Shown: one piece after another, positions 6,880-22,813 of the stretch
Layout of the letters: each line of letters begins with the position of its first letter
Numbering within the stretch: position 1 is the first letter of the stretch
DNA from: Singulisphaera sp. GP187
GTDB taxonomy: Bacteria > Planctomycetota > Phycisphaerae > Phycisphaerales > SM1A02
Length of the DNA: 64,000 nucleotides
Assembly (NCBI GenBank): GCA_945868805.1
Contig: CAMBMO010000005.1
Location: 62,001-126,000, forward strand
Direction of reading: 5' to 3'
Translations under genes and position numbers: made by a program
The notes under the pieces: model-generated
Told to the model about the DNA's origin: nothing
Seen by the model: the letters and a program-made list of their open reading frames with translations, nothing else
Database searches by the model: none

Positions 6880-6904
6880 CTTGCGATACCCTCACTTGCG
6901 ATAC
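6880..6904. repeat. direct repeat in the leader of the 608-aa secreted protein gene
   Basis: CTTGCGATAC occurs at 6880-6889 and again at 6895-6904, giving a 15-bp period, within the 49 bp between the protease stop and the ATG at 6864. Two direct copies close to a ribosome-binding site could be an operator or another member of the short tandem-repeat class seen in this window. Confidence 0.5.
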
Positions 6905-6913
6905 AAAGTGCGA

Positions 6914-7909
6914 TCAACCACCGCTCGCGTCCTTCACTTGAGGAGGCGCGCTGAAGTCTTTTCGCGGTGGCGGTTTCAAATAGTTGTTCCCCGAGTTTGG
7001 ATTGTTTCTATCGAACGCGAAGGCCTCTCGATTTCGAACGAAATCCTTCAGATATCGAGCTGGAATTGCGAATCCGAGCGACTCTCCTCCGCGGATTCCC
7101 ATATTCGTGATTCCCACGACTTCGCCGCGTGTATTGAACAACGGTCCGCCTGAATTCCCCGGGTTGATCGCGGTATCGGTCTGGATATATGTCAGTCCGT
7201 CGAAATTGCGCGATGTCGTCGAGACCACTCCCTGCGTCATTGTGCGCTCCAATCCGAGCGGATTCCCAATCGCGAAAACTGGTTGCCCGATCTCGAGACC
7301 GTCCTGAAGAACAACTGGTGCGCAGAGGAATGCCTTTCCCTCGGGATGCTTGATGCGAATCAAGGCAAGGTCGAGTTGACTATTGACCGCGACCAGCTCG
7401 ACATCCTCGATCTCGATTCTCTTCAGTGTGCCATCTGTCTGCGGAATCCAAATCGTCGTCCGCAGATTCGTTTCGCCTTGGACCACATGTGCGTTTGTGA
7501 TCGCGTACCCCTCGGGGTTGATGATGACGCCAGACCCGAGTCCCGCCGGAGTGGACACCTTGATGACCGCAGGGCCAATGATCTTTGCATGCTCCCGAGG
7601 CGAGAGTTCGGGCAAGTTGACCGCTGTCGAGAAGAGCGAATCCTCCGTGCGCTTGATCTGAGAAACGCCCGCCGCGTTCTGAACTTCCCCAACATCGGTC
7701 ATCTCGAAGACCAAGACATCAGGACCAACATCAAGCCAAACTCTCCGATCGCTCCGCTTCACGACATCGCCTTCGATTCGACGACCGCTCTTCAGAATGA
7801 CGACATCTGCAGGACCTCCCGCGACGCCCGGCGCTGTTGCCTCGTCAGCGTGCACGAAGGAAGAACAAAGCATGACGACCGTCAGTGACATCGAGAGCAA
7901 ATTGAGCAT
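6914..7909 (-). CDS. secreted trypsin-like serine protease (DegP/HtrA-like protease domain, no PDZ)
   Basis: The start is placed at the ATG at 7909 because GGAGG sits nine bases upstream and the product opens with a signal peptide (MLNLLSMSLTVVMLCSSFVHA). The ATG at 7924 overlaps that Shine-Dalgarno. The 331-residue protein has a small N-terminal domain of the pattern VILKSGRRIEGDVV, also seen in the protein at 57970. A chymotrypsin-fold protease follows, with catalytic His141 (TNAHVV), Asp180 (LDLALI) and Ser253 (GNSGGPL). HtrA proteases normally carry one or two PDZ domains after this. Here only about 50 Pro/Asn-rich residues follow, so PDZ is absent. It probably acts in the periplasm. It diverges from the FG-GAP gene at 7981. 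Confidence 0.88.
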   Translation of the reverse strand: MLNLLSMSLTVVMLCSSFVHADEATAPGVAGGPADVVILKSGRRIEGDVVKRSDRRVWLDVGPDVLVFEMTDVGEVQNAAGVSQIKRTEDSLFSTAVNLPELSPREHAKIIGPAVIKVSTPAGLGSGVIINPEGYAITNAHVVQGETNLRTTIWIPQTDGTLKRIEIEDVELVAVNSQLDLALIRIKHPEGKAFLCAPVVLQDGLEIGQPVFAIGNPLGLERTMTQGVVSTTSRNFDGLTYIQTDTAINPGNSGGPLFNTRGEVVGITNMGIRGGESLGFAIPARYLKDFVRNREAFAFDRNNPNSGNNYLKPPPRKDFSAPPQVKDASGG

Positions 7910-7980
7910 CGAGCAAGCCTCCATTGGTGAAAGGGTTACTATAACTCGCCTCCTCAATCCAAGGAACTCCCACGACGAAG

Positions 7981-10461
7981 ATGATGAACATGACAAACCT
8001 GACAAACCTGACAAACCTGACCAACTCGACCATCCCGCAATTCAATCTACAAGCGTCGGCGATGACTTTCGTTGTGGCTCTCTGCGCATCCGCAACCCTC
8101 AGTGGCGCGCAGACCACGACTCCGAGCGGTCAACGGATTGCGGACCACTTCGGATTTGACGGCGTCGACGCCATCAAGGTTGACAAAGGTGGTGGACCGC
8201 TCGCCACAGCGGATCTCGATGGCGATGGCAGAAGCGACATAATCGCCGTCAATAATCGAAACAGCCGAATCGACTTGCTCTATCAGAAGGTCGGAGCCAA
8301 ATCCACCGATGAAGTGCCGCCGACATCGAGCGTGAACGAGATTCCACAGCACTGGAGATTTCGCAGAGTGGAGATTCCCGTTTCCGACGAAGTCGGCGCG
8401 GTCGTCCCAATGGACTTTGATGGTGATAAGCGCATCGATTTGATCTACTCCACCGCGACTGGAAAAATTGTCTTCTTACGCCAATCCGCTCCAGGAGTCT
8501 TTGAGGTCGTGAGGAAGCACACGGTCAAGAACCTCAATCCCCAACGCGACGCATTGATGCTGAAAAACTTGCTCGGAGACGAACGACCGGAACTCGTCGG
8601 AATCGCCAATGGACGGATCCAGATCTGGCCGTTCACTGGATCTGATCTTGGGACTGCCGTCGAATTGTCGGCAGGAAACGGCAACATCGTGGCGATCGTG
8701 TCGAACGATCTTGACGGAGACGGCGCGAACGATCTTGTGGGGATCATGCCGGACGATCCAGCACCGCTGCGCGTTTGGTTTGGTTCGACCAAGGACAGAC
8801 TCTCGGCGCTCGGTGCTCAGACTCGATTTGAGATGCCACCGCTGCGCGACGCGGACATCGTCCCGATACCCGGCAAGAAAGGAGTCGCGCTCGGCGTGGT
8901 CGAGAAGCCATCAAAGCGGGTCGTTCTCCTTCAGGTTGCGAACGAGCCGATCACGGAGGGCGGGGATCGAGAGGCGAGCCTCCAAACATGGGCTTTCACC
9001 GACACTGGCAATCGAAAGCGCGACACGGCCATCGCGGATCTCAACGGGGATGGTCTGCCAGATCTTTTGGCGACGAATACCGAAGCAAACGCTGTGTCGA
9101 TCTTTCAGCAGGTTCCTGGTCGCGGATTTGTTGGAATGCAGAATTCTCCTGCCTACAGCGATCTCGACTTTGTAGTCGCCGGAGATGTCGATGGCAACGG
9201 ACGAGCCGAAGTCTTTGTGAGTAGCGAAAAAGAGGGCGTTGTCGGGAGAACCTCCTTTGTCAACGACGGCCTCGATTTCCCGCAGACGATGCCACTTGCC
9301 GGAGGGCTTGCGCCGACCGCGCTCGGACTCGTCAACATCGACAATCGAAACTGGGTCGCGATCATCGGCAAGGACGGTCGCAACTATTCAATCGAGTTGC
9401 AACCGGCGGATGGAACGACGACTGGAAAGGTTTCCATTCCACTTGGCGCGCTCAGTCGCGCCCCCGACACGATTCTCGCACTCGATGCCGATCAGGATTC
9501 CCTCACCGATCTTCTCCTCTTCACGCCCGACAAGCCAATGACGATGCTTCATCACGAGCCGGCCAAGGAGGGCGACGCGAAAGATGCTCCCCCCACCTTC
9601 AAGACTCTCGAGAGCAAGGACATGGCGCAATTCGGTCTTGCGCAAGCGGCGAATGCCCAGAACACCACGACTGCGGACATCGACGGCGATGCCCATGCCG
9701 AGTTGCTCGTTGCCGATCGAAACTTCGTTCGAGCGCTCCGATTCGACCCGAAGCTCGGTTGGCAAGTTGTCGAACAGATTAATGCGCCTCGCGGAGACAC
9801 AAAATTCGGATCGATCACGCGCCAAGCAACACCAAGTGGTGACCGAATCGCGGCTGGTGATAGTGAAAATGGAAAGGTCATCGTGTTTGCACGCGATGCG
9901 GCTGCAAAGAAGTGGAAGCAATCCGACGAGTTCGACGTCAAAGGCTTCAAGTTCAACTCGCTCGCAGCTGGACCCTTCACCGGTGGCAAAGATCAAGGAC
10001 TGCTTCTCGTTGGTAATGATGGATTCGGCGTCATGCGATTCAGCGGAACCCGGGAGAAACTGGAAGAGATTTCGTCGTGGCGGACTGACGACATCGGACG
10101 GGTTCCCCACGAATTGGGCGTCGGCGATCTGAATCAAGATGGCATGACTGACATCGTCGTACTCGACGCCGGAAAGCAAATGCTCGATGTCTTGGGTGTG
10201 AGCCGGGCAAACACCTTACTCCCAGCGATCAGTTTCAGAGTCTTCGAGAGTCGCCTTTTCTCGGGTGGCGAACCTCGAGAATTCGAACCGAGCCAGGCGA
10301 TCATCGACGACCTCACTGGTGATGGCGCTGACGATCTGGTCCTCATGTGCCACGACCGCATCCTTCTCTATCCGCAGATGACGAAGGATTCCAACTCGGG
10401 CGGTTCGGGCGCCCCGCAAGCCGACGCCCCGCCAGCCGTCGCCCCGCCAGCAAAGAAGTGA
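7981..10461 (+). CDS. FG-GAP/VCBS repeat surface or secreted protein
   Basis: The 826-residue product carries about nine repeats centred on calcium-binding-like motifs: ADLDGDGRSDII, DFDGDKRIDLI, DLDGDGANDLV, DLNGDGLPDLL, DVDGNGRAEVF, DADQDSLTDLL, DIDGDAHAELL, DLNQDGMTDIV and DLTGDGADDLV. These are the hallmark of integrin-alpha-like FG-GAP beta-propellers, usually extracellular and Ca-dependent. The N-terminus is odd: a TNL repeat from a 9-bp tandem repeat precedes the hydrophobic segment MTFVVALCASATLSGA at residues 28-43, which lacks the usual positive n-region. The true start could be the ATG for that Met. The C-terminus is Pro/Ala-rich (PQADAPPAVAPPAK), made by a 15-bp repeat. Ligand unknown. 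Confidence 0.85.
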   Translation: MMNMTNLTNLTNLTNSTIPQFNLQASAMTFVVALCASATLSGAQTTTPSGQRIADHFGFDGVDAIKVDKGGGPLATADLDGDGRSDIIAVNNRNSRIDLLYQKVGAKSTDEVPPTSSVNEIPQHWRFRRVEIPVSDEVGAVVPMDFDGDKRIDLIYSTATGKIVFLRQSAPGVFEVVRKHTVKNLNPQRDALMLKNLLGDERPELVGIANGRIQIWPFTGSDLGTAVELSAGNGNIVAIVSNDLDGDGANDLVGIMPDDPAPLRVWFGSTKDRLSALGAQTRFEMPPLRDADIVPIPGKKGVALGVVEKPSKRVVLLQVANEPITEGGDREASLQTWAFTDTGNRKRDTAIADLNGDGLPDLLATNTEANAVSIFQQVPGRGFVGMQNSPAYSDLDFVVAGDVDGNGRAEVFVSSEKEGVVGRTSFVNDGLDFPQTMPLAGGLAPTALGLVNIDNRNWVAIIGKDGRNYSIELQPADGTTTGKVSIPLGALSRAPDTILALDADQDSLTDLLLFTPDKPMTMLHHEPAKEGDAKDAPPTFKTLESKDMAQFGLAQAANAQNTTTADIDGDAHAELLVADRNFVRALRFDPKLGWQVVEQINAPRGDTKFGSITRQATPSGDRIAAGDSENGKVIVFARDAAAKKWKQSDEFDVKGFKFNSLAAGPFTGGKDQGLLLVGNDGFGVMRFSGTREKLEEISSWRTDDIGRVPHELGVGDLNQDGMTDIVVLDAGKQMLDVLGVSRANTLLPAISFRVFESRLFSGGEPREFEPSQAIIDDLTGDGADDLVLMCHDRILLYPQMTKDSNSGGSGAPQADAPPAVAPPAKK
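7987..8031. repeat. 9-bp tandem repeat at the 5' end of the FG-GAP gene
   Basis: Five 9-bp units (AACATGACA, AACCTGACA twice, AACCTGACC, AACTCGACC) fill 7987-8031, just inside the annotated start, and encode N-M/L-T triplets. One unit contains an ATG, so the array also affects which start codon is used. Confidence 0.88.
10411..10455. repeat. 15-bp tandem repeat at the 3' end of the FG-GAP gene
   Basis: GCCCCGCAAGCCGAC, GCCCCGCCAGCCGTC and GCCCCGCCAGCAAAG are three consecutive 15-bp units ending six bases before the end of the stop codon. They encode APQAD/APPAV/APPAK. Confidence 0.75.
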
Positions 10462-10473: not shown

Positions 10474-11811
10474 TTGCCGAACACAACGACAGGCACGCCA
10501 GACTCCCAACAGCGCACAGATGCGCTGGAGAAACTGCTTGAAATTTCGAAACGACTCGGCGAGTCTTCCGACCTGCCGGCGGTGTTGGGGGTCATCATCG
10601 ACGCGCTCCGAGATTTACTTGCCGCCGATCGTGCCACCGTGTTCACCTATGACGAGCAGACGAATGAACTGGTGATCCATGTCGCGCACGGCGTTGCGAC
10701 CGACCGAGAACAGCGGGGCGGAGACGGGACGATTCGATTCCCAGCGACGGCTGGTATCGCGGGCGCGTGCGCCACGACTCGGTCCATCATCAATATTCCA
10801 GACGCATACTTGGACGATCGTTTCAATCGCGATGTCGACAAGCGCACTGGATATCGCACGAAATCGATCCTGGCAATTCCGCTCGTCGATCACGGCGGAC
10901 AGTTGGTCGGCGTTGCGCAGGTACTCAATGCGAGCAAGGGATCGTTCGACCTTGCAGACGAGCAGATCGCTTCCGGAGTCGCCGCACATGCAGGCATCGC
11001 GCTTCGTCGCGCGCATCTCATCCAGAGTCATCTCGACAAGCTGAGGCTCGAGCAGGAAGTTTCGGTCGCCAAGGAGATTCAGCAAGGGTCGTTCCCAAAG
11101 CAAATCCCCTCGCATCCTGCATACGACATTGCCGCGTTCAACACACCTGCGCAAGAGTGCGGAGGGGATGCCTTTGATGTCTTCGGCCTGCGGGGAGGGA
11201 CCATCGCCGGTCGAGACGAGGCGGCGGACAGCATCTTTTTCTTGATCGCCGATGCGACCGGTCACGGGGTCGGACCGGCGCTCTCATCGATGCAAACCCG
11301 AGGGATGCTCAGGATTTCGGCGCGCCTCGGACAGTCGCTCGGATCAATCGTTCGGGAGATCAATACGCAATTGAATGATGACCTTCCCGCTGGACGATTC
11401 GTCACTGGCTGGCTGGGGATTCTCGATCTTGCGACGGCGACGATCGAATGCTTCAGTGCTGGACAAGGTCCCGTTTATGTCTACCGGCGTGATGCCGATC
11501 ACTTCGAAGAAATCGAAAGCGACGCGCCTCCGTTCGGAATCGTGATTCCAGGCTTCTCGTATAGCGCGACCCGATCGATTCAACTCGGCGTGGGTGACAT
11601 GTTGGTGCTGATTACGGACGGCTACTACGAAGCGATGTCTCCAGCCCAAGCCATTTGGACCGAACAAGGAGTTTTCGAAGTGATCCGCCGAATGAAGGAT
11701 AAGTCGTCGGACTCCATCCGGGCAGAACTCGATCGCTGTTCCCTCGAATTCGCACAGTCGACTTCGACCGATGACGACCGCACGGCGATCATTGTCAAGC
11801 GACTCTTCTGA
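10474..11811 (+). CDS. GAF-domain PP2C-type (RsbU/SpoIIE-like) serine phosphatase
   Basis: The 445-residue protein has an N-terminal GAF domain (about 30-185; LAADRATVFTYDEQTNELV, with GIAGACATTRSIINIPDAY). A linker helix follows (RLEQEVSVAKEIQQGSFP), then a SpoIIE/RsbU phosphatase domain (about 210-445) with metal-binding GGDAFD, DATGHGVGPAL, LITDGYYEA and a final STDDDRTAIIV. Family members dephosphorylate anti-sigma-factor antagonists or related partners in response to a signal sensed by GAF. No signal peptide is present, so it is cytosolic. The start is a TTG at 10474, the first possible start after an in-frame stop that coincides with the previous gene's stop. It is convergent to the CHASE2 cyclase gene, 24 bp away. 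No anti-sigma partner is in the window. Confidence 0.88.
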   Translation: MPNTTTGTPDSQQRTDALEKLLEISKRLGESSDLPAVLGVIIDALRDLLAADRATVFTYDEQTNELVIHVAHGVATDREQRGGDGTIRFPATAGIAGACATTRSIINIPDAYLDDRFNRDVDKRTGYRTKSILAIPLVDHGGQLVGVAQVLNASKGSFDLADEQIASGVAAHAGIALRRAHLIQSHLDKLRLEQEVSVAKEIQQGSFPKQIPSHPAYDIAAFNTPAQECGGDAFDVFGLRGGTIAGRDEAADSIFFLIADATGHGVGPALSSMQTRGMLRISARLGQSLGSIVREINTQLNDDLPAGRFVTGWLGILDLATATIECFSAGQGPVYVYRRDADHFEEIESDAPPFGIVIPGFSYSATRSIQLGVGDMLVLITDGYYEAMSPAQAIWTEQGVFEVIRRMKDKSSDSIRAELDRCSLEFAQSTSTDDDRTAIIVKRLF

Positions 11812-11835
11812 TTCCGTGACGAGCGCGGAGTTTGA

Positions 11836-14529
11836 TTACTTCGCGCGAAGTCGAAGAACCCCGTCGTCTGCTCCTTCTCCGGATGCGATGGCGTCGAGGT
11901 ACATCGCCGAGAGCTTTGACGACCCGTGCGCCAATTCAAATTCCCGCCACGCAGTGTTCGACTCGGCAAGTTTTCGATCGCGAAAGAGCCCAACCGCCTT
12001 CGCTGTGGCGCTGATCCACGCGTCGCTCGCATCCGCGCCGACGACTTCAAAGACTTCGATCGGCTTCGACTGACCGACAACCACGACGAGACCGAGCGGA
12101 CGGATCTTGATTGCGGTATTCATCCCCTGCTCCTCGATCCCCTGCCGGGTCGCCCCATCGATCAGAATGCCAGTCCCGAATTGCTTGTTTGCACTCTCGA
12201 GTCGCGACGAAAGGTTGACGACATCGCCGATCGCCGTGTAGTCGTTCAATTTCGGCGGTGCACCGCAATCACCGACAACCGCCATTCCAGTCGCGATCCC
12301 AAGTCGTACCGAAATCTTCGGAGTGCCATCGCCGATGGAAGCCTCGGAACTCTTCGCGAGTTCGACCATCACTGCCTGACATGCGACGGCGCTCTCGGCC
12401 GCGAGCGACTCTTGGCGCGGTTCGTCGCCGAACGCCGACCAAAACGCCATAAAACCGTCCCCGAGGAATTTGTTGACATATGCGTCGCGCTTGACGAGTT
12501 CGTCTGACAATCGACCGAGGTAAAGATTCAGCGTTCGAACGACACCTGGTCCCCCAAGCTGCTCGGCGATTGTTGTGAACCCACCGAGATCGCCAAAGAT
12601 CACAGTGATCCTCCGCTCCTGACCGCTCACAGTGAGCGCGTCGGGATTGTTCGACAACCGAGCCACGAGTTGTGGCGAGACACGGGCGGAGAATTGCCGA
12701 GTGATGCGCGCTCGATCGATTGAAGTCACAATCGCGATCGCCGCTGTTCCAGTCGCCCACGATGCCACTGGTGCGATAACCGGTCCGACCAACGGCATAA
12801 TGAGGTGGACATCGTTGAACGCGAATCTGCCTGCGAACCAGAGCCACACGGCGACGAGGACGATCATCGCACCGGCGCTCCAGCCAGTGCCGAGACGGCA
12901 TGCGCACAGCGACGCGAGACCTCCGAAGAGCAAGATCGCGAGCGGTTGTACCCACGATGGGGCAGTATCTCGTGCGTGCTTGCTGAGAACCATGTCCGCG
13001 ACGACCGCGTGAATGAAGACCCCCGGCGTCTTCGGGTCGTACGGAGTCGGCACGAAGTCGGCAAGGGCTCCCGTCGCGGACCATCCAAGAAAGACGAGCT
13101 TGTCGTTGAATTTCCGTTTCAACTCGTCTGACCGCGTCGCGATGTCGGTCGCGCCTCGCTGCGATTCCTCGTAGAGCTTGAGAAATTCTTCAGCGCTCGC
13201 CTCCGCCCCCGCTGGCAATGTGTCACCCATACGTGCATCGTTGAGCATCTGTGCGAATTCATCGATGGACTGCTTCCGCACTGATGATGTGCTGGACATG
13301 GTGGCGAGCGCGGGAAACTGTTCCATCATTCGAGCGCGGGTTGCGTCTCGAAGCGCCTCGTTCGCACTTTGGAGATCTCGATCCGAGTGAAGGTTGACGA
13401 GTTGCCCAACTGAGACGACCGCGCGCTCCTGACCGCTCAGCCCAGCCTGCGACCACTTCGCAAACCCCTCACCAAATGTCGATGTTGGCCAGTCCAACAC
13501 CATCACTCCCCCGTCGAGCGCGATCTTGGTTCCACCGATGTCAATCGCTTGCTCACTGGAAGCGATCTCAGATGGCTTGATTCCAAGGTGGGTTGCAGCT
13601 GCAACCAATCCAAACTGCTGGCACGATCCTCCCGGAACAACCCACGCGGTGCCCGTCCGGCGCTTCGCGCCATCCGAGTCATTGTGATGCATTTCATTCG
13701 TGACGACACCCAGCCCGACAGCCTTCTGCGCCAATTTCGGAACCGGAGGTTCATGCTCGTGCCCACCGAGCGGTTCGGCGAAACTCCCGCGACGCACGAG
13801 TTCATCCTGAAAATCTCGCCAGCTTTGTGCGCGATTCCATAGTTCCTGGACAAGGACTCCTTCCGCGAACTTGCTCGATCGATTTGCCCCACGGAGTTTG
13901 AAGACCAGGTCGTCCAGCGTCGTAACCGATGCGCCACTTTCAGTCGCCCAAATCACATTCCACGCCGCCAATGCTTTGAACCAAAGGGGGCGACTCAAAA
14001 AAATCTCTCGACGAGCTCCGGTCAAATGCGCTTGATCAGCCGCGGCCACCGGATCTTCGTCGATATGAGACGAGAGGACTTCGATGATCGAGGCGAGTTC
14101 CTTTGATCCCTCAGCACTCCGCCACTCCGGTTCGATCGAGTACTGCGGGCTGACATTCACTCCCAAGACCGTTCGAACCGCCGTCATCGCTTGCGCGAGG
14201 GATTCATCCCCACGAAGATCGGAATCCGGCTCGCTAAGCAACAAGTCCAGCGCGACCGTTCTGGCATTCGCTCGGGCAAGTTCATCGAGTGCCGCGGCAA
14301 ACTGGATTCGAGGCCAAGGCCAGCGCCCAATGGTGTCAAGCGATGAATTGTCAATGACGACGAGCGCAATCTCGTCGGACAACGGCTCGGCAATCGTCCG
14401 CGCGTGTCGATACCTCCAATCGACTGAGTCAAATTCCGCGTTGTCGAGCACGCCAAACCAAGCCAAGATCGTGACAATGATTGTGGAGGCGAACCCCGCG
14501 ACAAGAGCGATCCATGAAAATCGTTTCAC
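11836..14529 (-). CDS. CHASE2-domain class III adenylate cyclase
   Basis: The 897-residue membrane protein starts with a transmembrane helix (about 5-25), then an extracytoplasmic CHASE2 sensor region (about 30-500; DWRYRHARTIAEPLSDEIALV and VALDLLLSEP). Three closely spaced helices follow (about 520-620), then a cytoplasmic class III cyclase domain from about 639. The catalytic set is complete: metal Asp647 (FGDLGGFT) and Asp691 with substrate Lys687 (KFLGDG), adenine-specifying Asp769 (AIGD), and Asn772 and Arg776 (VNLSSRLE). It should therefore make cAMP. It lies downstream of the FecR-type giant gene on the same strand (85-bp gap); CHASE2 cyclases and FecR proteins are often neighbours in other bacteria. 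The signal it senses is unknown. Confidence 0.92.
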   Translation of the reverse strand: MKRFSWIALVAGFASTIIVTILAWFGVLDNAEFDSVDWRYRHARTIAEPLSDEIALVVIDNSSLDTIGRWPWPRIQFAAALDELARANARTVALDLLLSEPDSDLRGDESLAQAMTAVRTVLGVNVSPQYSIEPEWRSAEGSKELASIIEVLSSHIDEDPVAAADQAHLTGARREIFLSRPLWFKALAAWNVIWATESGASVTTLDDLVFKLRGANRSSKFAEGVLVQELWNRAQSWRDFQDELVRRGSFAEPLGGHEHEPPVPKLAQKAVGLGVVTNEMHHNDSDGAKRRTGTAWVVPGGSCQQFGLVAAATHLGIKPSEIASSEQAIDIGGTKIALDGGVMVLDWPTSTFGEGFAKWSQAGLSGQERAVVSVGQLVNLHSDRDLQSANEALRDATRARMMEQFPALATMSSTSSVRKQSIDEFAQMLNDARMGDTLPAGAEASAEEFLKLYEESQRGATDIATRSDELKRKFNDKLVFLGWSATGALADFVPTPYDPKTPGVFIHAVVADMVLSKHARDTAPSWVQPLAILLFGGLASLCACRLGTGWSAGAMIVLVAVWLWFAGRFAFNDVHLIMPLVGPVIAPVASWATGTAAIAIVTSIDRARITRQFSARVSPQLVARLSNNPDALTVSGQERRITVIFGDLGGFTTIAEQLGGPGVVRTLNLYLGRLSDELVKRDAYVNKFLGDGFMAFWSAFGDEPRQESLAAESAVACQAVMVELAKSSEASIGDGTPKISVRLGIATGMAVVGDCGAPPKLNDYTAIGDVVNLSSRLESANKQFGTGILIDGATRQGIEEQGMNTAIKIRPLGLVVVVGQSKPIEVFEVVGADASDAWISATAKAVGLFRDRKLAESNTAWREFELAHGSSKLSAMYLDAIASGEGADDGVLRLRAK

Positions 14530-14585
14530 AGGCGCATTATCGTGGCGCTCCGAGAATCGTGCGTAGCGGGCCGACCGACCCTTCT

Positions 14586-14624
14586 GCCTCAGTCTGAAGC
14601 CTCAGTCTGAAGCCTCAGTTTGAG
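14586..14624. repeat. 13-bp tandem repeat spanning a stop codon
   Basis: GCCTCAGTCTGAA occurs at 14586-14598 and 14599-14611, followed by GCCTCAGTTTGAG at 14612-14624. The third unit contains the stop codon (14615-14617, minus strand) of the giant FecR protein gene. Confidence 0.85.
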
Positions 14625-17600
14625 GGCGGAGGGACGAGCGCGAGGGCTGCGTTGGCGTCAATTCGCGCAAGTGCGGCTGCGTCGATCGCTTGTTGGGCGA
14701 GAATGCGCGCCTGATCTGCGCGCACGACGGTCTGACCGGCGATCTCGGCGGTCCGAGTGAAGACGACTCGTTCCCCCATCGTGCGCGCCGCATTCGCCGC
14801 TGCGAGGGCGGCCAGCCGTGACGACGACGCCCCGTTTCGCTGTGCGATCGCTTGGTCTCGCGCTGCGATGGCGAAGTCCGATGCACTCATCGCGAGAGTC
14901 GACCCGATGGCAAGGGCGAAGTTCTGCGCCGCCGCCGCAAATGTCTCGGCTTGACCCGCTGCACTCGTTGCTCCTGTATGGGCGCTTCCGGCGGCGAGAA
15001 CAAATCCATCCGCTGCGGCGAGTGCAGTCGCAAAGTCGCCCGAAGCTTGCGTCGATGTCGCCGCCTCGATGAGCGCTTGATCGGCGTAGCCACGTGTTTG
15101 GATGGCGGATCCGTCAGCGGCGATTGATGCGTACTCGCTTTGAACCGCGGACCCGTCCGCGAAGCTCGCGTTGTTCGCGACATCAAATCCGTCGGAAGCG
15201 AGAACAAAAAATCCGTGTGCCTCGTCGCTGAATGCAACCGCGCTGTCGCGATGTGTCTGGGTCGCCGTCAGCGAATCGCCCGCAGATGCAAAGAGGAGCG
15301 TGACATTGCCAAGCGCCTGATCGTGAGCGTCAATTGCGGAAACAGCTATGTCGTGCGCGAAGTTTGTGTTGGCGAGCGCGATCTCGCCGTCGAGTCCGAA
15401 GGCCGATGCATCGGATCCTGCCATACCTGCTCTCGCCGCACTGTCAGCGAGACTCCCATGAAGAGTCGCGCTCTGCGCCAACAGTGTTGCCGCCCATGCG
15501 AGGTCGTTTGCTTCGAGTGCGATGGTGTGCACCTGACCAGCCAAGAAACTCGTCTCTCCAAATCCGGCCTGTTCGATCGCAGTGCTCGCCGCCGCGAGGC
15601 GCGCGTTTGCGGTGTCCCGCGCTGCGACGGCATCCTCGGCGCGTTCGAGCGCAGCGATGCTGAGCGCGAGGGCACGGTCCGCGAGTGCTTGCGCAAGCGC
15701 TGTATCTGCAGTCAGGGCGAATTCGCTGGAAGCAGTCGCAGAAAGCGATGCGTCCAACGCCCGCTGCTGCGCGATGCCAACATGATTCGACATTCCTGAG
15801 TCCATTTGCAGACCGCTCTCGAGCGAGCTCTGCGCGATGCCACTCTGAGCAAGTGAAGTTTCGGCGAGTCCCGCTGCATATGTGTCCTGTTGAAACCCTT
15901 CCGTTCCCGCGGCACGCGACGCGGTCGCGGCGTTTTCTGCTGAGACTGCGTGAGCGATCGTGATTTGTGAATACGAAAGCGCGAGCGTGGCATCAGATGA
16001 TGACATCGCAGAGATCACATCGCTGAGTGACGCTACCGCGTTCACTTGCTGTAACTGCGCCTCATCGCGCTCCGACTGCGCCGAATCACGTGCGCTCGTT
16101 GCCAATGACACAGCGCCAGTTGCGTTGGCGAGGGCTTCTTCATGGATCTGGATTGCCCCGTCAATATCAGTCGCCAAACCGTCGATCTGAACTCGAGTTC
16201 CTTCGACGAGCGTGGCCGCCATACTCGCGTCGATTTTGTACCGAAGAGTATTCACCGCCGAACTCGCGGTGTCCGCTTCCGCATGACCAAGTGCGAAAAT
16301 CGCCTGGGTCGCCTGAAGCGAAGCCGTCGCCTGCGCCGCCGAACTCTGCGCGGATTGACCGAGCGCGATTGTCGAACCGATGTCGAAGCTGTCAATGCGC
16401 GCAAGCAGATCAGTCGAAATGGACGACGCTGTGCTTGCCGACCCATCGGCACTCGCGGCGACGGATTGAGTTGCGCCCGCGATCGATCCCGCAGCGTTGG
16501 CGAGCGCGAGCAGGTCCACCTGCGCGGTCGAACCACCTGCAATCGCAACGTTCGCAAACGCCTGCGAATATCCAGCGAATGCACTCGCATTCCCAGCATG
16601 GGTCGCACTCGACAAAGCGGCTGACACGGCATTCTGAGCAGACACGACCACCAGCGCCGAGATATCCGTTGCTTCTCCCAAAAGAAACTCTGCCGCCTGC
16701 ACATTGATCTCCGCTGAAGACGCGGCGATGCCAGCGTCTTGTTGGGCACCGAAAGCCGAAGCAACCGCTGTCTCCGCTTGCATTTTGAGGTCACCGTCGT
16801 TGAGTGCGAGCTGGATCGCCTCCGCGCCGACAAGGTCTTCAGCGTTGAGCGCGGTCAGAATGCTCGAGAGTCCGTCCTCGAGTAGTTCGATGATCCCGTT
16901 GAGATCAGCTTCGGCTTCTGCACCGGCACTCGCCGCATCCTGCGCACTCGCGGCTGCAGTAGCGACATCGAAAACTCGATCGCTCAGTTGATCCAACTTC
17001 CCGTCGGCACCGGCATTGTTGGACTGCGCGCTCTCCAGCGCGTCGAGCGTGACTGTTCGCGCCAATTGCGCTTCGACGAATTCTCCAAGCGTATCGACGG
17101 CGGCCTCTGCGGTCGCAGCTTCCGCGTCCGCGATTGCCGCAAGTCCTGCCGCCTGAATTGCAGCATCGTCGGCGAGATCAGCTTGATCTGCCGCGAGTTG
17201 AGCAGAAGCGCTCGTGGCGCCAAAGGGAAGCGGCGAACCATCCGGCGAAGTCACTTCAGCGAGTGCGGCAACCGCATCATCTCGGGCTGCATTTGCTTCG
17301 TTTGCGTACCCCGTCGCGTCGATCGCCAAGTTCATCGCTCGCTGTACCGCAAGCAAGGCGGCGGCGGCAGCTTCCGTCTCGGAGAATTGCTCGGCGAAGA
17401 GCGTTCCTTGGTCCTGTGCGACTCCAGCAGCGATTCCCGAATTGGTCGCGGCGACTCCGGCGGCGTCCGCGCGCGTGATCGCCTCAGAAATCGCGCCTTG
17501 AATCTGCGCCAAGCGACTTGCGTACTCCTCCTGCGCATCGGTCGAATCCTGAACCTGATCATTGGCACTCCCGGCATGATCGGCGGCGAGGTCCGCGGAA

Positions 17601-19861
17601 TCTCTCGCATCGCCCGCATTCACCCCGGTCGCGTCGGCGAACTGTCGCGATTCGATCGCCGCAAGTTCAGCCGCTGAATAATCCGGAACCTCTTGGTTCA
17701 ACGCAGCCAAGCAAGCTTGCATCGCTTCCGTTGTGAAGCCGCTATTTTCAATTGCATCGTCGAGGTGACCGAGTGCCTCAAAGAGAGCTTGTGCGGCATC
17801 GAGTTGCGCCCCATCAGCAAGCGACGCCGCCCCCTCATGAATCGTGACTTGAGCTTGAGCCAATTGGCTCTGCGACTGCGCGATCTCTCGGAAGGCCAGC
17901 ACTGCGGCTCGCTCGCTCTCCGCGACACTCGTCGCATCCTGCGCCTCAAGCATCGCCTCGATCGCGAGATCCAACTTCGCCATTCCCGTCTGAGCGTCGA
18001 TCGCCGCAACATCCGCGGCACTGGCGGCGTTCAAGGCTGCGAGAGCATCTTCTGCGGCTGCCAATGAGGCGGCCTGCACGGCGTTGAGCACCAGACTCTG
18101 GGCTTGCGCCTGCGCTGCCATCACAGTGGCAATTGATTCGTCCCGAGCCGACTCCGCCGCGAGTACCGCGAGCGACGCACTTTCAAGATGATCGAGCGCA
18201 AGTTCGAGGCTCTGCGCAATCGCGGGGAGCGGTCGACGTGCGTAGATACTCGCGATTTCATCCCGCGCCGCATCGACAAGCAGGAGAAAACCGCGCGCAG
18301 TCGAAGCCGCCGCTGTCGCGTTTTCGCCAAAGGGCACCGCCTGACTCGCGGCGTCGATCGCACCGCTGCGAGCGACAATCGCCATGTTGAGTCGTTCGAG
18401 CGCGATCGCAGCGAACTCGTCGGCAATGCCCGATCCGTAGAGCGCCTCATTTGCGAATCCACGTGCGCTCGCAGCATCGGTGATTGCAGCTTGTGTCAAC
18501 GCTCGAATCTCTGCCTCGGATCCGCCACTTCCCCCCTGCGGACCTTGAATGATTGATTGACCCCCGCCACCCTCATTGGGTTGCGATCCGACAGCGAAGA
18601 GTGCAAGAGCCCCGCGCGCGTTTTCGAGCGCGTCAGATCGACTCTCTCCTGCATCGACGAGTGCTCCGTTGACTTCAACGAGAAGTTCAGCGACCGCTGT
18701 CGCCGCGATCTGCGCATCGCTCTCGGCCGCCCGAAAGTTCTGCACGAAGCCTTGAGCACTGGTCAGAGACTCTTGGGCATGTTGAAGCGCAAAGATCGCA
18801 GCGTGCATCGCGTCATCCGCGCCAATCGCCGCCTCACCCGAGTCCGTGACGAATCCATCCACAGCGAGAAGATCGGCGACAACTGCGCCGACGCCGTTTC
18901 CACCTTCACCGTCTCCACTCTCCGCGGTGGCGATCTCTGCGGCGACTGTCGCGACCGCACCAATTGTGCTCGTGACCTGCGTTTGCGCGGGAGTTTGACT
19001 CGTACCCATGTGCGCAGAACTTTCTCGCTCCGCGGCGCTCGTCGAAGTTCCGGCCATCGGCGTCTGTCCCACCGATGACAAAAGTGCGCCAGTCGCGGGT
19101 TCAGGGGTCGCCGAAGTGCTTTTTGCCTCGCCACCGCCTCCAGAGAGCTGGACTGCTTGGGTCGATGCCGCGTACTTCAATTGAATCGCCGCGATCGCGT
19201 TCGTGCGGGCGCCGACGACCTCCGTACCAGTCATTGCGCCGGTCATGACACTGAATCCAGTGCCACGGACTGCAAGCGTCGAACTCGGAGTCACCACTTT
19301 GAAATCATTTTTCGCTCCAACTTTGTCGACTTGAAAGTCCGCACGACCAGATTTCATCTGCGCGATGGTTCTATACACATCGCCGTCATTGCCTTTGACG
19401 AGTTCAACGGTTGGCATCGAGAAATTCGAATTGCCGTCGACGAGAACAGTCGCATTGTCGAACTTCAACGTGATGCGCGATCGCAATCCGGTGCGAATCT
19501 CCGCGCCTGCCGAAAGAAGATCGTTCACCTTTGCGTCCGATGCGTCCTTCCACGCGATCGTCGCACCTGCGCGCCACCGCACCATCCCAGTGCAATCGAT
19601 CACCCTCGCCTGGAGTGGAAGTGACGTTTCCACGATCGTCGCGTTCGGCGCGACAACATTCGCCGGCTTCGCTCCTGCGCCTGCTGGTGAAAGTGGTTGA
19701 ATCGGGGAAACCTGAGTCGATTCCTGCCGAGCAGCCAATGCGATTTTCAGTGGATCGACTGCTGCGCCTTCAGCGACGATGGCGGTGAGCGTCAGCATGA
19801 CTCCAGATGCAGTCGCGATAAACGAGTTTCGTGCGTTCATGGTTAACACTGTTTCACACAT
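14615..19861 (-). CDS. giant exported FecR-domain protein with a long Ala-rich helical region
   Basis: The product is 1748 residues from 19861; a second Met at 19840 (MNARNSFIATASGV) gives a cleaner signal peptide ending near EGAA. Residues about 85-215 form a FecR-like domain (VRWRAGATIAWKDA, SRITLKFDNATVLV, PSSTLAVRGTGFSV), a fold that usually sits outside the cytoplasm. From about 300 to the end, some 1400 residues are almost entirely Ala, Ser, Asp, Glu and Gln in degenerate helical blocks, with very few Lys and essentially no Cys. This suggests a long acidic helical stalk. There is no transmembrane anchor, LPxTG, autotransporter or type I secretion repeat at the C-terminus (it ends ALALVPPPSN). 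It lies between a lipoprotein gene and a CHASE2 cyclase gene on the same strand. A role as a surface stalk or adhesin is inference only. Confidence 0.72.
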   Translation of the reverse strand: MCETVLTMNARNSFIATASGVMLTLTAIVAEGAAVDPLKIALAARQESTQVSPIQPLSPAGAGAKPANVVAPNATIVETSLPLQARVIDCTGMVRWRAGATIAWKDASDAKVNDLLSAGAEIRTGLRSRITLKFDNATVLVDGNSNFSMPTVELVKGNDGDVYRTIAQMKSGRADFQVDKVGAKNDFKVVTPSSTLAVRGTGFSVMTGAMTGTEVVGARTNAIAAIQLKYAASTQAVQLSGGGGEAKSTSATPEPATGALLSSVGQTPMAGTSTSAAERESSAHMGTSQTPAQTQVTSTIGAVATVAAEIATAESGDGEGGNGVGAVVADLLAVDGFVTDSGEAAIGADDAMHAAIFALQHAQESLTSAQGFVQNFRAAESDAQIAATAVAELLVEVNGALVDAGESRSDALENARGALALFAVGSQPNEGGGGQSIIQGPQGGSGGSEAEIRALTQAAITDAASARGFANEALYGSGIADEFAAIALERLNMAIVARSGAIDAASQAVPFGENATAAASTARGFLLLVDAARDEIASIYARRPLPAIAQSLELALDHLESASLAVLAAESARDESIATVMAAQAQAQSLVLNAVQAASLAAAEDALAALNAASAADVAAIDAQTGMAKLDLAIEAMLEAQDATSVAESERAAVLAFREIAQSQSQLAQAQVTIHEGAASLADGAQLDAAQALFEALGHLDDAIENSGFTTEAMQACLAALNQEVPDYSAAELAAIESRQFADATGVNAGDARDSADLAADHAGSANDQVQDSTDAQEEYASRLAQIQGAISEAITRADAAGVAATNSGIAAGVAQDQGTLFAEQFSETEAAAAALLAVQRAMNLAIDATGYANEANAARDDAVAALAEVTSPDGSPLPFGATSASAQLAADQADLADDAAIQAAGLAAIADAEAATAEAAVDTLGEFVEAQLARTVTLDALESAQSNNAGADGKLDQLSDRVFDVATAAASAQDAASAGAEAEADLNGIIELLEDGLSSILTALNAEDLVGAEAIQLALNDGDLKMQAETAVASAFGAQQDAGIAASSAEINVQAAEFLLGEATDISALVVVSAQNAVSAALSSATHAGNASAFAGYSQAFANVAIAGGSTAQVDLLALANAAGSIAGATQSVAASADGSASTASSISTDLLARIDSFDIGSTIALGQSAQSSAAQATASLQATQAIFALGHAEADTASSAVNTLRYKIDASMAATLVEGTRVQIDGLATDIDGAIQIHEEALANATGAVSLATSARDSAQSERDEAQLQQVNAVASLSDVISAMSSSDATLALSYSQITIAHAVSAENAATASRAAGTEGFQQDTYAAGLAETSLAQSGIAQSSLESGLQMDSGMSNHVGIAQQRALDASLSATASSEFALTADTALAQALADRALALSIAALERAEDAVAARDTANARLAAASTAIEQAGFGETSFLAGQVHTIALEANDLAWAATLLAQSATLHGSLADSAARAGMAGSDASAFGLDGEIALANTNFAHDIAVSAIDAHDQALGNVTLLFASAGDSLTATQTHRDSAVAFSDEAHGFFVLASDGFDVANNASFADGSAVQSEYASIAADGSAIQTRGYADQALIEAATSTQASGDFATALAAADGFVLAAGSAHTGATSAAGQAETFAAAAQNFALAIGSTLAMSASDFAIAARDQAIAQRNGASSSRLAALAAANAARTMGERVVFTRTAEIAGQTVVRADQARILAQQAIDAAALARIDANAALALVPPPSN

Positions 19862-19879
19862 CCTTTCGATACGACCGAC

Positions 19880-20518
19880 TCACTCAAATCGCCCACTCGG
19901 TGGCGCAACCTTCACAGGCGTCCCGCCTGCTGGCGTCAGTTGATTCGTCACCCCAACGGGCAACTCATCCTGAGTATCGCCACCCAATAACTTTGACATT
20001 CTGCCCAGCCGAGTCAAGAAATCGACGAATTCAAGCCCTGAGAAGCTCTGCGACTCCTTTTTGGCAATCAGAATGTCACCGTGCGTCAGTTCCCGCACGG
20101 CGTACCTGGGAATCGGCCCAACGACCCTCATGGTTAATCCTCCCCGAATTCCAGTGATTCTGCACGCGGCAGTGGCGATCCACCCTACTTGGGCACTTTC
20201 AGTGCTTGGTTCATCGAACCAGTCCGATAACCACATCCGCCGCTTCGCCTCAGCGACTCGCTCGTCATACGTGACCCATCCGTCACTCTTGTCGGCGAAA
20301 ATGAAAAGTGCGTGAAGCGCATCGTTGTTGCTGACCACGTGACTTCGTTCAAGGTCTTCGAAGAACTCGATCTCGGTCGCCTTGTCGTTGAACTTTTCCA
20401 CCGAGGATGTCGTGACTGTGGCGCGCTCGCATCCAAAGATGATTGATCCGATCCCAGCGATGAACATCGCCATCACGACTCCTCCCGCCGCATCGAGAAG
20501 CGATCGCTTAGAACGCAT
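19880..20518 (-). CDS. putative lipoprotein of unknown function
   Basis: The ATG at 20518 opens a positively charged n-region and hydrophobic core ending in a lipobox-like FGC (MRSKRSLLDAAGGVVMAMFI, Cys about residue 30), giving a 212-residue lipoprotein. The frame stays open to 20563, but the upstream part overlaps the barrel gene more deeply. The mature part is mixed alpha/beta and ends in a Pro/Gly-rich tail (PAGGTPVKVAPPSG), with no family that I recognise. Its start overlaps the end of the barrel gene by 11 bp and its stop lies just before the FecR gene, so the three are likely co-transcribed and may act together in the cell envelope. Confidence 0.6.
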   Translation of the reverse strand: MRSKRSLLDAAGGVVMAMFIAGIGSIIFGCERATVTTSSVEKFNDKATEIEFFEDLERSHVVSNNDALHALFIFADKSDGWVTYDERVAEAKRRMWLSDWFDEPSTESAQVGWIATAACRITGIRGGLTMRVVGPIPRYAVRELTHGDILIAKKESQSFSGLEFVDFLTRLGRMSKLLGGDTQDELPVGVTNQLTPAGGTPVKVAPPSGRFE

Positions 20519-22016
20519 AGGTGATCCCCGCATACAAGAAGTCCCTTGCTCCAGACTGGCCACTGAAGAAGACTTCAGTATTCGGCATGAATATCCCGTA
20601 TCGAAGATTGAGATCGAGATCGCTCAACACTCGCCATTCGATGCTGAAATCCAATTCGCCACCGACATAGTTGGATCCGCCTGGCACCGTGGGAAAGGAG
20701 AGCGGAGCATCCGAATCGAGGCGCATGAACGCAAATGCTGTGGCACCAAGTCGGATGCCCCCGAACACGCCACCGCCTCGAAAGGGAGTCGTACTCAATC
20801 CGATCGATGGGCAGAGCAAATTTGCGAAATCGGGCGAAAGTACGAGACCGGTGTTCACATAACCAAGCGAGTTGAATGAAGAATCAACTGCGCGAGGTGC
20901 GATTCCACCGAACGTACTTCCAGAATCCAAACGCTGATTCGAACCGCTTCCTGCGACGATTTGAAAATCCACGCGTGAGTCCTGCTCGTTGCGGGCGAGC
21001 CAGGTCAAGCCTCCAACCCCTGCGAGTGCCGAGATTCGATCATTTTGCTGTGCAAGCGGAACAAGCCCTCCCGAATGCGAGAGCGGATCCGAGAGTGTCG
21101 TTCCGTACTCGTACATGAACTCTGCTCGATAGACGAGATCTGCTCCAAGTGCTCCGTTGCTTCCGAATCCGAGATAGCTGGAGTTGTAACTAAATGTCGT
21201 CGGAAAGATCGGGGCGGACGAGGGCAGCACCGCAACTTGACCCTCGTTCAGATCCTTCTGTGCAAGCAGGTATGCGTATGGTCGGTGACCGGCAATTCCA
21301 CTGAACTCCAACTTCCCACCGTAGTAGAGGCGGTGAGTGTCCGTGTCGTATCCGGGGCGTGAGAGATCCCAATCGATCGTGTCATTTCCAGCGGTTTGCC
21401 CGATGATCGTCGTGAGCTTGAGATTGCTCCACGAGAAGTCAAAGATTCCGGCGTACATGTAATTGCTGAGCGCCGTTCCCTGACCCCAGATCACGTACTG
21501 ACGCCCCATCTTTGCCGTGAAGTTGTAATCGGGCTTCGCCCCAGTCTGCGCTTGAATCATTCCCGCTAGATCGAATTCGTACCAGTACAACTCGCCAATG
21601 GGATTCTGCCACCCAACATCGTCATAGTCAGGTCCGCTCGGACGAGTGCCGTTGAAGTCCCAGTCGTTGTACAGAAACCGCAGGCGGCCATAGAAGCGAT
21701 GCGCACCATCGAGTTCGATCGACGTGTAGAGACGAAGGTCGAAGACTTGTTCGTACTGTTCCTGGCTCTGCGCCGAATCGATGATATTGAACGCATATCG
21801 AAACGTTCCCCCGTAATCGATGGAGAGGCGCTCCGAAATGGGCGAATTGGCGAAGTACGCCTTGCGCATCTGCGCGTCTTCATCGTTGAGCTGTCGCTGC
21901 AGGTTTTCCGCCGACCGTGCCGCGGCATCACCCTGCCCGAAAGCTGGGGCGACGACCGATCCCATGACGAGAGTCGCTCCGATGAGAAGCTCGCATATTC
22001 CTTGTTGCACTCTCAT
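20508..22016 (-). CDS. outer-membrane beta-barrel protein, possibly alginate-export/porin-like
   Basis: The ATG at 22016 is preceded by GGGAAG about nine bases upstream and opens a signal peptide (MRVQQGICELLIGATLVMGS) with cleavage near AFGQ. The 502-residue protein consists of alternating aromatic and polar beta strands (YGGTFRYAFNII, HRFYGRLRFLYNDWDF, TAKMGRQYVIWGQGTALSN) and ends in an aromatic residue (LYAGITYAF), the usual beta-barrel C-terminal signal. The RQYVIWGQG-type strand resembles alginate-export or porin families, but I cannot fix the family. It would sit in the outer membrane and form a pore or export channel. It heads the minus-strand series with the lipoprotein, FecR and CHASE2 genes. 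Confidence 0.75.
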   Translation of the reverse strand: MRVQQGICELLIGATLVMGSVVAPAFGQGDAAARSAENLQRQLNDEDAQMRKAYFANSPISERLSIDYGGTFRYAFNIIDSAQSQEQYEQVFDLRLYTSIELDGAHRFYGRLRFLYNDWDFNGTRPSGPDYDDVGWQNPIGELYWYEFDLAGMIQAQTGAKPDYNFTAKMGRQYVIWGQGTALSNYMYAGIFDFSWSNLKLTTIIGQTAGNDTIDWDLSRPGYDTDTHRLYYGGKLEFSGIAGHRPYAYLLAQKDLNEGQVAVLPSSAPIFPTTFSYNSSYLGFGSNGALGADLVYRAEFMYEYGTTLSDPLSHSGGLVPLAQQNDRISALAGVGGLTWLARNEQDSRVDFQIVAGSGSNQRLDSGSTFGGIAPRAVDSSFNSLGYVNTGLVLSPDFANLLCPSIGLSTTPFRGGGVFGGIRLGATAFAFMRLDSDAPLSFPTVPGGSNYVGGELDFSIEWRVLSDLDLNLRYGIFMPNTEVFFSGQSGARDFLYAGITYAF

Positions 22017-22051: not shown

Positions 22052-22813
22052 ATGTCGATTCGAGTGATCATCATCGGAACAGGAAGCGCGATCTCTGACC
22101 GTGCGTACGGATCGAGCGCGGCGATTCTCTCCGGCGATGGAATCGTTCTCATCGACTGCCCAGACTCAATCCTTCGCGCAATGAGAGATGCTTCCGTGAC
22201 GAGCGGGATTCGACTCGACCCAATGAGCATTAGCGACATCGTGATCACCCACCTTCATGGTGACCATGTGAACGGACTCGAGACGATCGGGTGGAAGCAG
22301 TGGATTGCTCGACAGGGCGGCAATGCAACTCGTCCGAATCTGCATGCAATTCGACCCGTCGTCGACCGACTCTGGGAGCGACTCGCACCATCGATGGATC
22401 AGAATGGATCAGCTGTTCTCGCTGATTATTTCTCAGTGAACACGCTTGTTCCTGGGGTTCCCGCCAACATTGCGGGACTTCGCGTCGAATGTCGCAGTAC
22501 CGAGCATCTCATCCCATGTTGCGGGCTTCGGATTTCGTCCGGTGGCGCGACACTTGGTTGGAGCGGGGACACCCGATTTGATCCAGAGCACATCGATTGG
22601 CTTTCGTCGGCTGACATCGTCGTCCATGAGACGTCTGAATCGAGGGTTCATACCCCCATTGCGTGCCTCAATTCACTTCCCCCTGAGCTCAGGCAGAAAA
22701 TTCGATTGATTCACATGGAAGACAACTTCAATCAGGCGGTCACGGACATCGTCCCCTTGACCGAGGGCGAAGTGCTTGATGTGACTGGTTCGGTTCGCTC
22801 ATCGATCGATTGA
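22052..22813 (+). CDS. metallo-beta-lactamase-fold hydrolase (RNase Z-like subfamily)
   Basis: The 253-residue protein carries the MBL zinc motif THLHGDHVNG (about residues 66-75), preceded by the family's GTGSAISD loop and strand IVLIDCPDS. It also has GWSGDTRF, HETSES (about 190) and a late LIHMEDN that supplies the last ligand His. The overall order is that of RNase Z/arylsulfatase-type MBL hydrolases of about 250 residues. No exosite arm is obvious, so tRNA 3' processing is not proven. It has no signal peptide and is therefore cytosolic. The 3' end overlaps the convergent citrate synthase gene by 82 bp. Confidence 0.85.
   Translation: MSIRVIIIGTGSAISDRAYGSSAAILSGDGIVLIDCPDSILRAMRDASVTSGIRLDPMSISDIVITHLHGDHVNGLETIGWKQWIARQGGNATRPNLHAIRPVVDRLWERLAPSMDQNGSAVLADYFSVNTLVPGVPANIAGLRVECRSTEHLIPCCGLRISSGGATLGWSGDTRFDPEHIDWLSSADIVVHETSESRVHTPIACLNSLPPELRQKIRLIHMEDNFNQAVTDIVPLTEGEVLDVTGSVRSSID

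Follow-up and report, generated by a model that had tools for sequence, protein, structure and literature searches.

What joins an outer-membrane barrel, a small lipoprotein, a giant exported FecR-domain protein and a CHASE2 cyclase that are encoded side by side, and how might a signal made at such a locus be read and ended within the cell? The question is raised by a 64,000-nucleotide stretch of DNA from Singulisphaera sp. GP187 (positions 62,001 to 126,000 of contig CAMBMO010000005.1, assembly GCA_945868805.1, 2.5 Mb and 95.8% complete), a member of the order Phycisphaerales in the Planctomycetota; this whole stretch is henceforth called the window. The four genes very probably constitute a conserved envelope signalling cassette. 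Judging from sequence, we also lean towards a wider reading in which the cassette would form a trans-envelope cyclic AMP (cAMP) circuit together with the products of two flanking genes, a GAF-SpoIIE/PP2C phosphatase (GAF-PP2C) as reader and an Apyc1-like enzyme of the metallo-beta-lactamase fold (MBL) as eraser. What had been odd neighbours would then fall into a single circuit, its input, messenger, reader and eraser all encoded within about 12 kb.

Recurrence of the four-gene cassette

A search for the lipoprotein in 151 genomes of the order (cut-off E 0.01) detected it in 51, the window's own genome counted. Fifty-four regions were fetched around matches outside that genome. In these lipoprotein-anchored loci the barrel is adjacent in 52/54, FecR lies downstream in 52/54 and CHASE2 downstream in 47/54, and all four genes are present in 45/54; where at least 5 kb of downstream sequence is available, CHASE2 is found in 42 of 46 loci and FecR in 44 of 46. 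The order barrel, lipoprotein, FecR, cyclase is kept in 43 of the 45 complete loci, the cyclase preceding FecR in L064 and L077. The nine incomplete loci comprise three at contig ends (L033, L036 and L081), one with the cyclase on the other strand (L079), three with room yet no cyclase (L050, L084 and L085, the latter two also without a barrel label) and two in which the cyclase is present and the FecR label missing (L063 and L068).

The same arrangement emerged when a cyclase alignment was used to search named genome contigs and the best 80 of 511 relatives were kept, mostly from Phycisphaerales and other Planctomycetota metagenome-assembled genomes. Counting the 54 loci with at least 3.5 kb of upstream sequence (26 of the 80 had too little and were left out), the upstream genes include FecR in 47, the lipoprotein in 48, the barrel in 48 and all three in 47. 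Six of the seven exceptions have none of the three genes, while L104 fails the FecR overlap rule only. The cyclase-anchored test depends in part on the first: the hidden Markov models used for labelling came from the lipoprotein-anchored loci, and the query consisted of cassette cyclases. Some genomes also recur between the two locus sets (L035 is the same contig as L091, and L034 the same as L096).

Beyond the order, the lipoprotein was detected in 42 of 392 genomes sampled across the phylum, 28 of them outside the order, and 20 of the outside loci were fetched. The barrel is adjacent in 20/20 and FecR downstream in 17/20, with CHASE2 in 10/20 (6/12 where at least 5 kb is available). Based on these counts, the barrel, lipoprotein and FecR form the widest core, with the cyclase as a usual, not universal, partner. 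Pfam searches of the genes following FecR or the lipoprotein in four cyclase-less outside-order loci found no other signalling output, only a TIG protein, a NIDO/BACON protein or no match; examples of such barrel-lipoprotein loci followed by TIG or NIDO/BACON proteins are L228 (4052-7171) and L232 (5690-7957). Two to four tandem FecR genes follow the lipoprotein in L060, L065, L075 and L222. Because the gene set recurs in several families within the order, and beyond the order as well, we take it to be more than chance. The initial annotation had named a neighbourhood kept in no relative as grounds for refuting its reading; relatives clearly do keep it, and its recurrence supports one envelope-signalling unit with a CHASE2 cyclase.

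The five genes described by the initial annotation, which was made from the sequence alone, all lie where it placed them (Table 1), and its picture of four same-strand genes with small gaps or overlaps holds. On the minus strand, transcription would run from the barrel through the lipoprotein and FecR genes to the cyclase, with gaps of 18 nt between lipoprotein and FecR and 85 nt between FecR and cyclase. An overlap of exactly 11 nt between the lipoprotein start codon and the barrel stop, as in the window, recurs in 73 of 102 barrel-lipoprotein pairs drawn from the two locus sets, some loci being in both; in-frame alternative starts for the window's lipoprotein lie at 20533 and 20563. The short gaps and the recurrent overlap favour coupled expression of at least the barrel and the lipoprotein. 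A promoter and terminator scan returned one promoter-like and five terminator-like sites, both counts below the shuffle means, and we therefore draw no operon boundary. The Apyc1-like gene that flanks the barrel was absent from the initial annotation.

Table 1. Genes of the cassette and its two flanking partners, in window coordinates (stop codons included)
Feature	Position	Strand	Remarks
Outer-membrane beta-barrel, predicted AlgE-like fold, N-terminal helix	20508-22016	-	ATG start; 22049 if upstream GTG
Small lipoprotein, SLH-triplet-like predicted fold	19880-20518	-	ATG overlapping barrel stop by 11 nt
Exported FecR-domain protein, 1748 aa, with 1,403-residue Ala-rich heptad-periodic tail	14615-19861	-	Pfam FecR
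CHASE2 class III adenylate-type cyclase	11836-14529	-	Pfam CHASE2 and Guanylate_cyc
GAF-SpoIIE/PP2C phosphatase, candidate cAMP receptor	10474-11811	+	Pfam SpoIIE and GAF; convergent with cyclase
Apyc1-like MBL-fold predicted cyclic nucleotide phosphodiesterase	22052-22813	+	Pfam PF23023; divergent from barrel

The cyclase with its candidate reader and eraser

The cyclase carries Pfam matches to CHASE2 (E 2.3e-36, 126.1 bits) and Guanylate_cyc (E 1.3e-12, 48.2 bits), and its CHASE2 match is the only one in the genome. Residues D647, K687, D691, D763, N772 and R776, which we take to be the metal Asp pair, the Lys/Asp base pair and the Asn/Arg positions, are all present and are common to 44-48 of 49 aligned sequences, the window's included. 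The domains and catalytic residues of a CHASE2 class III adenylate cyclase receptor are thus in place, confirming the complete catalytic site proposed at the outset, and its closest relatives of solved structure, 6fht and after it 3r5g (CyaB), are adenylate cyclases.

A major question is how cAMP made by this enzyme could be read. Next to the cyclase, and convergent with it at a distance of 24 bp between gene ends, lies the GAF-PP2C gene (SpoIIE 121.3 bits, GAF 65.5 bits). The initial annotation rightly saw that it faces the cassette; it treated the phosphatase as a mere facing neighbour, whereas its sequence marks it as a likely cAMP reader. A comparison of its GAF domain with the Protein Data Bank (PDB) matched 27 sequences, and 19 of the best 20 (E 3.8e-34 to 2.7e-13) are GAF domains of cyclic-nucleotide cyclases or phosphodiesterases (PDEs), the closest being CyaB2 and PDE GAFs; the remaining one is an HD phosphohydrolase, and other GAFs appear only from E 4.9e-6. 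A GAF-PP2C orthologue from family f5 of the order gives the same pattern, with CyaB2 at E 2.2e-42. The excerpt of PMC4411481 lists R291, T293, I308, D356 and N359 as the adenine contacts of CyaB2. The window's GAF has identical residues at three of these positions (R53, T55 and D122), with V70 for I308 and T125 for N359. In an alignment of 65 rows (51 of them taken from the two sets of cassette loci, 13 from other loci and one from the window), and leaving gaps aside, the first position is R in 63/63, the second T or S in 63/63 and the third D in 64/64. Phosphatase positions D232, D235, D260, G263, H264, D382, D434 and D435 are invariant in 65/65.

The phosphatase also keeps company with the cassette. 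Among 72 cyclase-anchored loci with room, 44 have it no more than 700 bp from the cyclase end (32 convergent, 12 co-directional), and across the 151 genomes of the order the full-length protein occurs in 43/51 cassette genomes vs 7/100 others; in the window's own family, f1, it is present in 18 of 20 cassette genomes. The PP2C set behind these counts was hand-picked, excluding matches to the phosphatase part only as well as a partial protein in G020 (17-236) and a longer frame in G015 (31% identity, E 9e-41), and Fisher tests on the co-occurrence counts ignore relatedness.

Pairings away from the cassette add to this picture. Among 21 tabulated f1 genomes without the cassette, G033 alone has an MBL or a PP2C gene, and it has both, side by side (L181); the tabulation excludes G132, G138, G141, G147 and G150, which are not among the lipoprotein, PP2C or MBL matches. 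MBL and PP2C genes are likewise adjacent in G032 (L182). G015 has the cassette with the weak 31% PP2C match and a fusion of PP2C to a cyclic mononucleotide (cNMP)-binding domain beside an MBL gene (L191, 5784-7098). In G016, which lacks the cassette, GAF-PP2C is the first gene of a run that also encodes an AP_endonuc_2 protein, ShlB, a TPS exoprotein and a different CHASE2 cyclase, and G039 has a similar run. These separate pairings are the strongest sign that GAF-PP2C serves CHASE2 cyclases. Runs of GAF-PP2C, AP_endonuc_2, ShlB, a large exoprotein and a CHASE2 cyclase were located in cassette-less genomes at L189 (2584-14125, with a TPS domain) and L190 (4759-17391). As to a candidate target module for the phosphatase, an RsbW-like ATPase gene adjoins a STAS gene in the window's own genome (L172).

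Regulators of the CRP type would be the expected readers to set beside this phosphatase. In the window's genome, as represented by its assembly, neither PF00027 nor HTH_Crp_2 has a match. Across the order PF00027 matches 57 of 151 genomes, and all HTH_Crp_2 matches below E 1e-10 fall in families f3, f5 and f6; in f1 a few matches pass the cut-off, the best being partial at E 4.4e-7. Four sampled f1 proteins with PF00027 are two MscS channels, one ion channel and one POPDC protein, and two of six sampled from other families are CRP proteins. We put at about even the chance that the locus holds, in one place, a CRP-independent cAMP pathway composed of an outer-membrane and FecR-gated CHASE2 cyclase, a GAF-PP2C receptor and a dedicated Apyc1-type off-switch, with a PP2C-cNMP-binding fusion standing beside the off-switch instead in at least one relative.

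The candidate off-switch scores 55.9 bits against PF23023 (cut-off 50), and its best PDB match is Apyc1 itself (7u2r, E 8.3e-21). The metal-binding residues H67, H69, D71, H72 and D173 are invariant in 47/47 sequences, and together with the score they place the protein in the Apyc1 family. According to the excerpt of PMC9117128, related Apyc1-like proteins of phages and bacteria, YhfI included, cleave cyclic mononucleotides, Bacillus subtilis YhfI prefers cAMP and cGMP, and host Apyc1-like enzymes may act in other cNMP signalling. In 31 of 54 cyclase-anchored loci the stretch that was fetched includes an MBL gene on the opposite strand. The gene occurs in 25/51 cassette genomes vs 4/100 others, a weak match in G082 being excluded from the counts, and in all 20 cassette genomes of f1.

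The barrel, the lipoprotein and the FecR tail

Predicted structures suggest what the outer parts of the cassette might be. The signal peptide of the barrel was called by eye. Its Pfam match to Alginate_exp (PF13372) reaches 17.8 bits, below the cut-off of 25.2, while the best Foldseek matches of its AlphaFold2 model (mean pLDDT 86.1) are all AlgE (8rqp, E 9.1e-22, TM 0.63), and an alignment of 51 sequences has 22 invariant columns. We describe it as a predicted outer-membrane barrel with the shape of AlgE and stop short of calling it an alginate exporter.

The lipoprotein has an IFGC lipobox whose Cys is kept in 55/55 rows, and it belongs to no Pfam family. Membership of SLH (PF00395) by sequence was rejected, since a scan of 10 lipoproteins with a limit as permissive as E 10 found the motif in none of them. 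At the level of fold, the AlphaFold2 model (mean pLDDT 87.3) resembles SLH in Foldseek with a probability of 0.99 but an E of 0.05, and the tool VIA aligns it to 7sv3 with Z 11.4 (root-mean-square deviation 3.1 over 127 residues); the 13 best VIA rows are all SLH, and the next have Z 6.7 and 4.5. An SLH-triplet-like fold is therefore a good lead from the model and not a proof, because the tool cautions that helical folds may commonly give Z values under about 13. SLH domains bind cell-wall polymers, and on that basis the lipoprotein may have an anchoring role.

The FecR domain occupies residues 121-211 of its protein (E 1.3e-8, 35.6 bits), and this single FecR match of the genome sits with the genome's sole CHASE2 match. 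As the initial annotation had it, the 1748-residue protein carries some 1,400 residues of nearly Lys-free, Ala-rich sequence: residues 346-1748 contain 27.6% Ala and 4 Lys. Residue autocorrelation over lags 5-259 peaks at lags 7 and 14 (5.3 and 3.9 standard deviations), and a permutation heptad score gives Z 5.5 for the last 490 residues. FecR tails from L032, L034, L035, L090, L091, L096 and L097, which include two duplicate pairs, score 6.4-7.2, and the unrelated tail of L145 also scores 7.0. In a Fourier analysis of the full Ala-rich tail, neither hydrophobic nor charged residues rose above the shuffle limit, and short windows favoured 3.7 residues (Z 3.5). The tail is likely a coiled coil. 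In the loci as a whole, 72 of 98 distinct FecR proteins have at most 600 residues, and a longer, Ala-rich form is seen in just 19. The basic system can therefore do without the tail, which is a lineage-specific heptad-repeat extension of FecR and no part of the core. The view of a giant stalk at the centre of the system, with which the analysis began, was accordingly given up, since most FecR proteins of the loci lack the stalk while barrel, lipoprotein and cyclase usually remain.

Two further features of the window lie close by. A 13-bp direct repeat of 2.9 copies (14586-14623) spans the FecR stop codon and the gap to the cyclase gene. On the far side of the PP2C gene, positions 5038-10461 encode an HtrA-like protease, an FG-GAP repeat protein and a 608-residue exported protein, whose position is kept in several close relatives.

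The proposed circuit, its alternatives and known systems

How might these parts work together? In the circuit that we favour by a modest degree, the AlgE-fold barrel and the SLH-like lipoprotein, adjacent in the loci, would form the outer-membrane or peptidoglycan-facing part. By analogy with Sinorhizobium meliloti, the exported FecR protein, which in the window's genus bears the long and probably coiled-coil heptad-repeat tail, would couple this part to the periplasmic CHASE2 domain. CHASE2 would gate the cytoplasmic class III cyclase, whose catalytic residues are all present, to make cAMP. Binding of cAMP to the GAF domain would alter the activity of GAF-PP2C towards a phosphorylated STAS-type or similar target, and the Apyc1-like enzyme, a member of its family by sequence, would hydrolyse cAMP and reset the system.

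Several observations weigh against this circuit. The window's barrel shows no similarity to the S. meliloti barrel by hhalign (probability 0.1, E 0.44, with one sequence on one side), and homology of the two was rejected. The best single-domain match of the GAF is an HD phosphohydrolase (4mcw, 104.5 bits), and in its NKFDE motif, where N, F, D and E are present, the K is Ala; over the 65 aligned rows N is kept in 64, F in 63, D in 59, E in 54 and K or R in 46, and in PDE2 GAF-B, according to the excerpt of PMC11977230, changing each NKFDE residue to Ala abolished cGMP binding. Among the loci fetched from f4, f5 and f6, few have GAF-PP2C close to the cassette, and the f1 genomes G072 and G114 have the cassette with no PP2C at the cut-off used. 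CRP proteins occur in some f5 and f6 genomes. Of the 51 cassette genomes, 34 encode one or another cNMP-binding protein (10 of 20 in f1), and the absence of CRP from the window's genome is read from an incomplete assembly. To these we add the cyclase-less half of the outside-order loci. The missing Lys, the scarcity of PP2C in f4 to f6 loci and the other cNMP-binding proteins (the ten sampled include the channels, the POPDC protein and two CRP proteins) speak for an account in which the cassette is real but GAF-PP2C reads another ligand, cAMP is read by an unrecognised component, and phosphatase and MBL are neighbours for other reasons. We consider this unlikely, though worth serious thought: the concentration of full-length GAF-PP2C in cassette genomes, the conserved adenine contacts of its GAF, the MBL-PP2C pairs outside the cassette and the PP2C-cNMP fusion beside MBL in G015 all argue against it.

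The remaining accounts are weaker. A reading of barrel and lipoprotein as a module for export or tethering (an AlgE-type pore with an SLH-type wall anchor), which FecR and cyclase merely regulate or monitor, would suit the two predicted folds and the outside-order loci, where the barrel-lipoprotein pair is constant and the cyclase is present in half. It is improbable in view of the regularity with which CHASE2 follows within the order when there is room, and a Pfam scan of nine window proteins, four of them flanking the four-gene set and PP2C, contained no polysaccharide synthesis family. Hardly better placed is a cell-surface or periplasm-spanning stalk made of the Ala-rich FecR tail, whose state CHASE2 would read. 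Heptad periodicity along a very long, Lys-poor tail speaks for it. A helix rises 0.15 nm per residue, and 1,403 residues as one continuous helix would extend about 210 nm, more than the periplasm; yet Gly/Pro breaks would permit a folded helical bundle instead, and the short FecR proteins of most loci make this account doubtful. Finally, a Pycsar-type anti-phage cyclase with an anti-Pycsar enzyme is brought to mind by the Apyc1-like neighbour and by a match of the PADLOC PycC model to the cyclase domain (E 7.7e-23). That match spans only the shared class III cyclase domain, the protein is a CHASE2 receptor with what we take to be an adenine-type K/D pair, no Pycsar effector matched among three proteins scanned, and the gene set is conserved over a whole order. 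Neither a pyrimidine cyclase nor an effector being found, the PADLOC matches were set aside as generic and Pycsar defence was rejected as extremely improbable.

Compared with known systems, the FecR-CHASE2 pairing of the favoured circuit is familiar, and it would be the output, on the evidence of its genes, that is unusual. The initial annotation had stated that FecR-CHASE2 adjacency is known and that it knew of no description of the full set, and this agrees with our survey: such adjacency is known from S. meliloti and Campylobacterota, and searches of the open-licence literature found no paper that describes the barrel-lipoprotein-FecR-CHASE2 set or pairs a CHASE2 cyclase with a GAF-PP2C reader. 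The Campylobacterota clusters join a CHASE2 cyclase, a phosphodiesterase, a FecR outer-membrane protein and a TPR protein (PMC9239204); neither a separate AlgE-fold barrel nor an SLH-like lipoprotein nor a GAF-PP2C reader is described in the excerpt of that paper. In the Burkholderia BiofilmReg operon a FecR protein with a peptidoglycan-binding LysM domain likewise adjoins a CHASE2 transmembrane receptor, but CHASE2 is fused there to a histidine kinase with response regulator output (PMC5192318, excerpt).

The reader and the eraser have relatives of their own. The GAF domains of Anabaena CyaB2 and mammalian PDEs are the nearest solved ones and share the R, T and D adenine-contact positions, whereas the window's GAF is fused to a SpoIIE/PP2C phosphatase and has lost the motif Lys. 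The MBL resembles Apyc1 and YhfI (PMC9117128) in sequence family and metal-site residues; unlike the phage enzyme, it is chromosomal and conserved beside an adenylate cyclase, and cAMP is its predicted substrate. If the circuit is right, it would supply a chromosomal role for Apyc1-type enzymes, which the excerpt of that Nature 2022 paper leaves open. On an Ensifer plasmid (L086, 6227-10281) a CHASE2 cyclase gene is overlapped by an MBL gene, with FecR and TPR genes divergent.

The closest parallel is S. meliloti, in which the outer-membrane barrel NsrA is required for the response of CHASE2 adenylate cyclases (CyaD1, CyaD2 and CyaK; PMC7529298 and PMC13001267, excerpts), its barrel lying at 600-1200 (PMC7529298, excerpt). 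On pSymB, the gene of a 1221-residue FecR-TPR protein overlaps a CHASE2 cyclase gene; this protein fits the NsrA layout in its C-terminal 600 or so residues, although its identity as NsrA and its barrel (Pfam E 0.05) are both putative. As in S. meliloti, the window has the gene of an outer-membrane barrel in genetic linkage with FecR and a CHASE2 cyclase. There FecR and barrel are joined in one protein, here they are separate genes with a lipoprotein between them; the regulator there is the CRP-type Clr, whereas in the window's genome no CRP was detected and a GAF-PP2C is linked. Should the circuit hold, NsrA/CHASE2 outer-membrane signalling would extend from a plant symbiont to the Planctomycetota, with a phosphatase instead of a transcription factor as the cAMP receptor, and cAMP would act through protein dephosphorylation.

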